In this document: positions 37,184 to 38,984 of the stretch, in pieces
Position numbering within the stretch: the stretch's first letter is position 1
Layout: each line of letters opens with the position of its first letter
Source of the DNA: Euzebya rosea
GTDB lineage: Bacteria; Actinomycetota; Nitriliruptoria; Euzebyales; Euzebyaceae
Assembly (NCBI RefSeq): GCF_003073135.1
Contig: NZ_PGDQ01000005.1
Location: 248,001-312,000 of the forward strand
DNA length: 64,000 nucleotides
Reading direction: 5' to 3'
Position numbers and translations under genes: made by a program
The notes under the pieces: generated by a model
What the model saw: the letters and a program-made list of their open reading frames with translations, nothing else
What the model was told of the DNA's origin: nothing
The model's database searches: none

Positions 37184-37189
37184 TAGGAT
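37184..37189 (+). promoter_or_regulatory. Candidate -10 element of the DUF1844 gene
   Basis: TAGGAT lies 10 nt before ATG 37200. It overlaps the earlier in-frame ATG at 37188, which is therefore unlikely to be the start. Confidence 0.45.
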
Positions 37190-37199
37190 GGCCGCCACC

Positions 37200-37622
37200 A
37201 TGAGCGCACCCCAGCAACCCCAGCCCAGCCAGGAAGAGCTCGAGGCCTACTTCAACGAGCTCCGCCAGGCCCCCGTCCACGACCTGCTCCTGCAGGCCTT
37301 CTCGGTCCTCGGGACCGGTGCGGAGGTCAAGCTCGGCCTGCCGGATGCCCGGGTCCTGATCGACTCCATGGAGGCGCTGCTCGGCGCCGGTCGCGGCGTC
37401 CTCGCCGAGACCGCCCCGCAGCTCGAGCAGGCCATCGCGCAGCTGAAGACCGCCCAGGTCCAGGCCGAGAAGGACATCGCCGCCGAACGGGCCGGCGAGG
37501 GTGCGGGGGAGGAACAGGCAGCCGGGTCCGGCCAGGCGCAGGCGACCACGCCGCCGCCGGCCGCGCCGCAGCAGCCCCAGCAGAAGGCCACCGACAAGCT
37601 CTGGATCCCCGGCCAGGGCTAG
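37200..37622 (+). CDS. DUF1844 domain protein
   Basis: A 140-residue soluble protein. The conserved part (about 12-85) is FNELRQAPVHDLLLQAFSVL, KLGLPDARVLIDSMEALLGA and LEQAIAQLKTAQVQ, all helical. The tail is low in complexity, rich in Ala, Gln and Pro, and ends DKLWIPGQG. The function of DUF1844 is unknown. In actinobacteria it often lies directly before infC-rpmI-rplT, and it keeps that neighbourhood here except that infC is missing. The start was chosen after the -10 box. Confidence 0.85.
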   Translation: MSAPQQPQPSQEELEAYFNELRQAPVHDLLLQAFSVLGTGAEVKLGLPDARVLIDSMEALLGAGRGVLAETAPQLEQAIAQLKTAQVQAEKDIAAERAGEGAGEEQAAGSGQAQATTPPPAAPQQPQQKATDKLWIPGQG

Positions 37623-37675
37623 CGCGACCTCTCGGTCGGGGGTCGGCCCGCGTCCAGCGGGCCAGCAACCCGCCC

Positions 37676-37770
37676 GAGTTGTGCAGCACAGCCGGGGGGT
37701 TGGCTGAGCCGCACAGGAGGGCCGGGTGCCTGTGCACCTCGGTCGGTGTCTCGGCCGAGGTGCACAACTT
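37676..37770 (+). repeat. Palindromic repeat element, copy 1
   Basis: A 95-bp element bounded by GAGTTGTGCA and TGCACAACTT, with an inner 11-bp stem GTGCACCTCGG (37732-37742) / CCGAGGTGCAC (37755-37765). The end arm can pair either with the outer start or with the inner stem, so two folds compete. It is 93/95 identical to copy 2, 174 bp downstream. Confidence 0.85.
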
Positions 37771-37849
37771 CGCCGCGCCCCGCGCCCCGCGCCCACCCGC
37801 CGCGAGCCCGCGCCCCGCGCCCACCCGCCGCGCGCCCACCCGGGGCGCC

Positions 37850-37944
37850 GAGTTGTGCAGCACAGCCGGGGGGTTGGCTGAGCCGCACAGGAGGGCCGGG
37901 TGCCTGTGCACCTCGGTCGGGGTCTCGGCCGAGGTGCACAACTC
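37850..37944 (+). repeat. Palindromic repeat element, copy 2
   Basis: Same element as 37676-37770 with two substitutions, bounded by GAGTTGTGCA and its exact complement TGCACAACTC. Both copies are followed by the same CGCCGCGCCCCGCGCC tract, so the duplicated unit is about 174 bp. Confidence 0.85.
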
Positions 37945-38107
37945 CGCCGCGCCCCGCGCCCCGCCCCGCGCCCCGCGCCGCGAGCCCGCGCCCCGCGCCC
38001 CAGCCCCAGCCCCACCCCCACCCCCGCGTCCGCGTCACGCGGTCCCGTCCGCGGCCCTCGGCCCACCGGCCGACACCACGGGTTCGGCAGATCGTGACGA
38101 TCTGACG

Positions 38108-38169
38108 TATCATCGCGAGTCCATACCAAGTGGGAGCGGCTTTCCCCACCTACCGGGCAACGACTCGCG
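38108..38169 (+). promoter_or_regulatory. Promoter and first hairpin of the rpmI-rplT leader
   Basis: TATCAT (38108-38113) is a good -10 box in a locally AT-richer spot; the -35 is weak. CGCGAGTC (38114-38121) pairs with GACTCGCG (38162-38169), enclosing a shorter GTGGG/CCCAC stem. The result is a multi-stem 5' structure about 170 nt before rpmI. Confidence 0.45.
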
Positions 38170-38223
38170 TGGGTCCATCACGTCAGAACGCCAGCCCGAT
38201 CCAGGGCTGGTCGGGATCGTCGT

Positions 38224-38260
38224 CGGCCGCTGCCCCTGCGCAGCGGCCGCGTTGCGTTTT
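38224..38260 (+). terminator. Intrinsic terminator/attenuator in the rpmI leader
   Basis: CGGCCGCTGC (38224-38233) pairs perfectly with GCAGCGGCCG (38240-38249) around a 6-nt loop, followed by CGTTGCGTTTT. A 10-bp GC stem with a T-rich tail lies 76 bp before rpmI and after its apparent promoter. That fits transcription attenuation, as known for L20-controlled operons. Confidence 0.65.
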
Positions 38261-38335
38261 CCCGCCGTGACCACGGCGACGCCAGAGCAAGACCCACGAC
38301 AGCTCTCCCAAGAACCGCCCCATCAGGAGCACGTC

Positions 38336-38533
38336 ATGCCCAAGCAGAAGAGCCACTCCGGCGCCAAGGACCGCTTCCGCGTCACCAAGACCGGCAAGGT
38401 CATGCACCGCCGCCAGAACCGCAACCACCTCGCGGAGCACAAGCCGCAGCGCCGCAAGCTGCGCCTGCGCAAGGACCAGCCGCTGCACAACACCGCAGAG
38501 GCCAAGACCATCAAGCGGATGTTGGGCCAGTAG
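38336..38533 (+). CDS. rpmI: Ribosomal protein bL35
   Basis: A 65-residue basic protein of the large ribosomal subunit. The sequence starts MPKQKSHSGAKDRFRVTKTG and has the family features HRRQNRNHL and KTIKRMLGQ at the end. An AGGAG ribosome site lies 8 nt before ATG 38336. It is paired with rplT 97 bp downstream, as in most bacteria, but the usual upstream infC is absent. The 24-bp 3' end, including the stop, is repeated just downstream (38563-38586). Confidence 0.97.
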   Translation: MPKQKSHSGAKDRFRVTKTGKVMHRRQNRNHLAEHKPQRRKLRLRKDQPLHNTAEAKTIKRMLGQ

Positions 38534-38586
38534 CCCAGTCCCCGGGCTCCTGCCCAACCTCGCGGATGCTGGGCCAGTAGCCCGTC
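38518..38586 (+). repeat. Duplicated rpmI tail in the rpmI-rplT spacer
   Basis: CGGATG(T/C)TGGGCCAGTAG occurs at the end of rpmI and again about 46 bp later. Each copy can form the small hairpin TGGGC-CAGTA-GCCCA or a variant. It looks like a local duplication and could affect rplT translation or mRNA stability. Confidence 0.6.
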
Positions 38587-38630
38587 CGCGCACCACTCTC
38601 ACCACGACACACCTCAGCTAGGAGACAGCA

Positions 38631-38984
38631 ATGGCACGCGTCAAGCGCGGCGTCCACGGACGCAAGCACCGCCGTACAGTCATGAACCGCGCGAAGGGGT
38701 TCCGGGGGGCACGTAGCCGCCGGTACCGCGTCGCAAACGAGACGATCCTGCACGCCGATCGGTACGCAACCCGCGACCGTCGCGCGAAGAAGCGGGACTT
38801 CCGCAAGCTGTGGATCACCCGCATCAACGCGGCGGCCCGCCAGGACGGCCTGTCCTACAGCCGCTTCATGTTCGGCCTGAAGCAGGCCGAGATCGAGGTC
38901 GACCGCAAGATCCTGGCCGAGCTGGCCGTCAACGACCCGGCGGCGTTCTCCGCGCTCGTCGAGCAGGCGAAGGCCCACCTCTAG
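38631..38984 (+). CDS. rplT: Ribosomal protein bL20
   Basis: A 117-residue protein of the large ribosomal subunit, needed early in 50S assembly and known as a repressor of its own operon in several bacteria. The basic N-terminal tail [20 protein letters not shown] and [16 protein letters not shown] are typical, followed by the globular part [20 protein letters not shown]. Length and motifs are normal. A GGAG ribosome site precedes ATG 38631. Confidence 0.97.

Follow-up and report, generated by a model that had tools for sequence, protein, structure and literature searches.

The doubled 95-bp palindromic sequence in front of rpmI in Euzebya rosea is most likely a REP-like DNA site with dispersed copies and, jointly with this, the binding site of a protein combining an AbiEi-like winged helix with a PD-(D/E)XK nuclease-type region, in a system resembling that of REP elements and RAYT transposases. 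The element is dispersed, holds a fixed geometry at orthologous sites, lies after genes, and brackets the gene for this protein in three species. Palindromes unrelated to it in sequence bracket other genes of the same type and are themselves dispersed.

The doubled element and its neighborhood

In the window, i.e., the whole 64,000-nucleotide stretch of DNA that was analyzed, the first copy of the 95-bp element occupies positions 37676..37770 on the forward strand and consists of a tail GAGTT, dyad A (37681..37714; 34 bp made of two half-sites), a 17-bp spacer, dyad B (37732..37765; 34 bp, placed 51 bp after dyad A), and a tail AACTT. A C-rich tract (37771..37849) separates it from the second copy (37850..37944, forward strand), with dyads A and B at 37855..37888 and 37906..37939. 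As described in the first-pass annotation, the copies are 93/95 identical (differing at positions 72 and 95) and 174 bp apart from start to start, and the C-rich tracts between and after them are real; the repeat extends ~25 bp beyond the element, giving 120 nt at 98%. The same annotation had each copy begin with GAGTTGTGCA and end with its complement, which is exact in copy 2 only, copy 1 ending in AACTT, and gave the inner stem as 11 bp where it measures 15 bp at 93% complementarity. The competition it saw between outer and inner pairing is present but is a consequence of symmetry, because each copy is made of two adjacent hairpin dyads. The real window contains four dyad units compared to none in each of three Markov shuffles, and the RNA fold of the element gave z values of -3.3 to -6.5 against dinucleotide shuffles, with both strands folding far better than the shuffles.

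The gap is bounded by an upstream gene (37188..37622, forward strand), whose stop codon lies 53 bp before copy 1, and by rpmI for ribosomal protein L35 (38336..38533, forward strand), 391 bp after copy 2. An approximate block in E. rosea (G000) at 37623..38055 is almost wholly missing from the orthologous gap of the sister species (G001), which measures ~25 bp compared to ~430 bp in G000. On the preferred explanation, either the G000 lineage acquired the element as one block or the sister species lost it as one, and local duplication doubled it. A 22-bp stretch covering the end and stop codon of rpmI (GCGGATGYTGGGCCAGTAGCCC, 38515-38536) has a second copy just downstream at 38562-38583.

An earlier suggestion that the element replaces infC was correct in that no infC lies between the upstream gene and rpmI; the replacement itself was ruled out because a single infC is found elsewhere in the genome (G000:C6:6985-7482) and the orthologous place in three congeners (G001, G002, and G003) holds neither infC nor the element. 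The absence of infC here is a feature of genus-level gene order and is unrelated to the element. Throughout the rpmI-rplT neighborhood (window 37188-38984) infC is gone, being on another contig in G000, and no room is left for it before rpmI in G001-G003. The upstream gene had been named DUF1844, which was not confirmed by Pfam (no match above cut-off). Closer to rpmI, a stretch conserved in all four congeners (38095-38260; AAGTGGGAGCGGC...CCCCACCT together with a GGCCGCTGC/GCAGCGGCC hairpin, behind which G000 and G001 have T-rich sequence) is probably a ribosomal-protein leader; Rfam gave no match for this stretch, and what it gave on the rpmI/rplT side was at chance level.

A dispersed family of fixed geometry

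Exact matches to GAGTTGTGCA number 19 in the G000 genome compared to three for a reversed control word, and a copy-number check in this genome and its relatives, as proposed in the first pass, returned many further copies. A model of 20 aligned elements, the counts from which are lower bounds, produced at least 70 both-strand matches in G000, at least 52 in G001, at least 29 in G002 that were weaker and differed in length, and none among the matches listed for G003; in a set of 41 genomes, at least 26 gave a match at E <= 0.1, and most of these matches were weak. Flanks were read for 60 distinct sites (34 in 28 G000 loci and 26 in 20 G001 loci, leaving out five shifted matches that overlapped a better one), and all 60 were exactly 95 nt long with two 34-bp dyads, a 17-bp spacer, and 5-bp tails; G000 thus has at least 34 copies and G001 at least 26. 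Each element carries four half-sites with the consensus T-GTGCA-S-C-T-C-G-G-C-C-G, two per 34-bp dyad, and the dyads are exactly 51 bp apart. The outer ends GAGTTGTGCA...TGCACAACTC form terminal inverted repeats as in MITEs, the tails are variable (GAGTT, GTCTC, CCGTT, GGAAT, and others), and no GTAG/GGAG-type head was found.

Copies at different G000 loci share a mean of 57/95 positions compared to 79-94 of 95 for copies within ~750 bp of each other. Close local copies also occur at C6, C3, and C14 and as a five-copy array in G001; the near-identity of the window pair is therefore attributed to local duplication, in agreement with the recent duplication proposed at first. In a scan of 396 genomes of the phylum, a sample that did not contain G001, the dyad pattern with at most two mismatches was detected in 5/396 (G000 27, G002 14, G008 7, G012 1, and G213 1) and a reversed control in none. 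In G002 the dyads occur singly and not as the 95-nt pair. Dyad scans of a named-genome collection and of viral contigs, from both of which near or own records may be absent, gave no finding. Another genome of the order (G008; L171, L172, and L043) contains paired 44-bp palindromes that are perfect (GGTGTGGGCAGTTCGGCCGG...) and have the 14+6+14 core of the element, one pair being ~1.3 kb from a DUF559 gene.

Nineteen of the 20 G001 element loci are orthologous to G000 element loci. Across 24 ortholog comparisons between the two species, loops were 49%, spacers 47.5%, tails 64%, and stems 77% identical with no length change and no indel, and loop/spacer identity was 0.45 for orthologs compared to 0.35 for non-orthologs. 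Judged from these alignments, loops and spacers at shared sites have drifted nearly to chance identity and the shared sites appear to be kept by selection. A decayed mobile copy was ruled out at the shared sites because loops and spacers approach saturation there with the geometry intact; gene conversion as the cause of the uniformity is disfavored because identity in the loops and spacers of non-orthologous copies is low. The site-by-site conservation suggests a retained function, for which a purely selfish mobile element would have no need.

Gain or loss of sites was also evident, as G001 has empty sites at the window locus, L138, and L145, and G000 at L166, and the content of L122 and L125 differs in G001. 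Of the G002 dyad loci, 6/7 could not be placed with confidence at sites of the element in G000. The four clean empty/filled pairs (window, L138, L145, and L166) showed no target-site duplication. The small mobile palindromic element first suggested is thus retained in its REP-like part, on the basis of many copies, presence or absence between species, and placement, and is not supported as a strict MITE, given that no target-site duplications were seen. The family consists of dispersed extragenic palindromes in inverted pairs, as do REP/REPIN elements. According to codon-based gene calls, the 60 elements are located downstream of genes, with 34 between convergent genes, 26 in tandem gaps, and none in divergent gaps. 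Counted as distinct gaps (convergent/tandem/divergent), they number 15/15/0 in G000 and 14/8/0 in G001, so that half or more are convergent, compared to 8, 40, and 22 among background gaps of at least 95 bp.

The RNA switch raised in the first-pass annotation was rejected as the main explanation after covariation tests on 20 elements and 104 dyads. The outer, long-range fold had no covariation (480/500 shuffles as high), hairpin covariation was weak (5/500 shuffles as high for the elements and 0/500 for the dyads), and Rfam returned nothing for the element at the gathering threshold. The hairpin signal counts against the DNA-site reading. With eight near-identical local copies left out (60 reduced to 52 elements), agreement of dyad arms in the pairing relation reached z 2.7 (-0.07 in G001 alone), and the association of arms in the direct-repeat relation, which are unable to pair, was larger (z 5.0). 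The S-position pair was near-independent (GC 53, CC 18, GG 16, and CG 14), and ~1074 Watson-Crick cells were predicted from column make-up alone compared to 1099 seen. Because stem covariation is weak and smaller than the direct-repeat association, the data favor a DNA site over an RNA switch; from these sequence patterns, what is conserved is interpreted as the half-site, present four times per element and recognized by a protein.

The best surviving alternative, an unlikely one, is that the elements act as bidirectional 3′-end hairpins (terminators or mRNA-end protectors) under RNA-level selection and without a nuclease link. Such hairpins would match the post-gene and convergent-gap placement, the strong folds on both strands, and the stem covariation that exists. 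However, terminators need no fixed 34-17-34 geometry that includes loops and spacer, the stem association (absent in G001 alone) is exceeded by one that cannot involve pairing, the S-position pair is near-independent, and the bracketing of AbiEi/DUF559 genes is left unexplained.

Palindromes bracketing AbiEi/DUF559 genes

Two copies of the element (L128) bracket a gene at G000:C16:127757-128806. Its G001 ortholog (L148) is also bracketed by elements and its G002 ortholog (L167) by dyads, with the encoded proteins being 78 and 48% identical to the G000 protein, respectively. The N-terminus of the G000 protein is an AbiEi-like winged helix (PADLOC AbiEi, E 1e-12), in line with an AbiEi_4 domain in several other cassette proteins, and its C-terminus aligns with DUF559/MTES_1575-type PD-(D/E)XK nucleases. 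Pfam gave sub-threshold matches only for the G000 and G001 cassette proteins, and their designation as putative nucleases rests on the aligned D...E.DGPHH region and on homologs. A solved-structure search for the cassette protein and a plasmid search with two cassette proteins gave no finding, and a named-genome scan with protein alignment yielded 386 pattern matches, of which none could be confirmed; each of these collections may lack near or own records.

Other genes of this type were surveyed in 60 fetched AbiEi/DUF559 loci, of which 43 unique loci with full flanks were used (nine at contig ends and eight duplicates were left out). Matching left and right palindromes (at least 30/42) were identified in 15/43, and the bracketed total rises to 17/43 with the G000 and G001 genes themselves, whose imperfect dyads the detector misses; the remaining 26/43 are without bracketing palindromes. 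The control of random positions in four relatives gave 0/400 with a maximum of 29, near which the five weakest bracketed loci lie (L208, L057, L217, L065, and L222; 30-32 of 42), and the 26 unrelated loci used in an earlier control reached at most 25. When 30 DUF559 loci were scanned with a GTGCA-type detector, none showed units of this kind; the pattern emerged when any matching palindrome was searched for, and the bracketing sequence differs between genomes. The cassettes are tight, with ~1.0-1.4 kb between palindrome centers.

In G003, which belongs to the same genus and has no GTGCA element, a search with the palindrome on either side of L054 gave 37 both-strand matches, corresponding to 19 distinct sites after merging; the same search gave no matches in G000, G001, or G002. 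Partial genome samples revealed cassette palindromes elsewhere in their own genome at two sites in 281 kb (G024), four in 400 kb, one of them weak (G035), and one in 116 kb (G015), while 143 kb of G011 contained no copy of its cassette palindrome; no palindrome matched another genome's sample among these four. The dispersed G035 copies (L262, L271, L258, and L273) appear to have four nested half-sites, two direct then two inverted, and those of the window element alternate.

In this arrangement, the element is most likely the site bound by the AbiEi-like winged-helix plus PD-(D/E)XK (DUF559/Vsr-like) protein of G000:C16:127757-128806. The palindrome-bracketed gene and a genome-specific palindrome population near gene ends would form a REP/RAYT-like pair, in which the partner enzyme would be a nuclease of a class other than RAYT. 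The protein may bind the sites, cut DNA, and help in spreading the sites. Counting against this reading are the 26/43 genes without bracketing palindromes, the G011 result, the G002 dyad loci away from clear G000 element sites, the sub-threshold Pfam matches, the existing stem covariation, and the site-by-site conservation between G000 and G001. A wider proposal, with about even odds of being right, is a resident system of the Actinobacteria in which AbiEi-like PD-(D/E)XK nucleases each have a genome-wide cognate palindrome population, placed on both sides of the nuclease gene and close to gene ends, that the nuclease spreads (RAYT-independent REP) or by which it is checked (self-marking/addiction). 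If true, this spread-or-check role would explain the selection keeping individual sites.

Homing, whereby nuclease cassettes invaded older host palindromes (e.g., nucleoid protein sites) and left one palindrome per side, could produce both the tight cassettes and a palindrome sequence that changes between genomes along with the cassette. It is nevertheless quite improbable, as the genus includes G003, whose own gene is associated with a palindrome family of unrelated sequence, and homing would require the host site to change together with the nuclease.

Relation to known repeat and nuclease systems

The enzymes mainly known to accompany REP elements are HUH transposases (RAYTs). Spread of an ordinary REP/REPIN family by such a tyrosine transposase, now lost or missed, would account for the inverted pair of palindromic units, the extragenic dispersal, and the 3′-end placement, and is very improbable given that the RAYT-type Y1_Tnp domain (PF01797) was absent from G000-G003 and present in 1/21 relatives (G012), that there is no GTAG-type head, and that the palindromes bracket another gene class. 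A cognate RAYT was searched for and is absent from the genus.

The preferred reading, a site paired with a nuclease, has several points in common with REP/REPIN and RAYT systems. RAYT genes are reported to be always flanked by two REPs and to coevolve with them (Nunvar 2010, PMC2817692), and the likeness covers genome-specific dispersed palindromes, often inverted doublets near gene 3′ ends, and one gene bracketed by two palindromes with which it varies (PMC2817692). In contrast, the gene bracketed here codes for a protein with an AbiEi-like winged helix and a PD-(D/E)XK domain instead of a RAYT, half-site sequence is conserved rather than pairing, the GTAG head is missing, and the 95-nt geometry is rigid in G000 and G001. 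One large REP class is reported without any dedicated enzyme (PMC3733652). The CGTC-tagged REPs treated there are likewise dispersed palindromes without a dedicated transposase, in convergent and tandem gaps (Di Nocera 2013, PMC3733652), whereas the element consensus has no CGTC tag and a bracketed partner gene exists.

On the protein side, AbiEi of S. agalactiae, the regulator of the AbiE type IV toxin-antitoxin system, has a winged-helix N-terminus and binds inverted repeats, described as 23-3-23 bp (PMC3985639). The AbiEi sites are in its own promoter, unlike the present sites, which occur in dispersed positions and flank the gene for a protein with a C-terminal nuclease-type domain. The Caulobacter DUF559 protein VsrA shares the PD-(D/E)XK domain, is placed among Vsr-like endonucleases, and is linked to DNA damage in cells without a methyltransferase; the portions of that report available describe no dispersed cognate palindromes for it (PMC12907096). 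No report of dispersed palindromes paired with an AbiEi/DUF559 nuclease was found in open-licence full texts. Repeated pairing with an unrelated nuclease class, seen under palindromes of unrelated sequence in several genomes, would, if true, offer a second, testable route for the spread or upkeep of bacterial palindromes and a role for the large AbiEi/DUF559 protein family of unknown function. The combination of palindrome and nuclease seems to be a new variety of the partnership already known between repeats and transposases.
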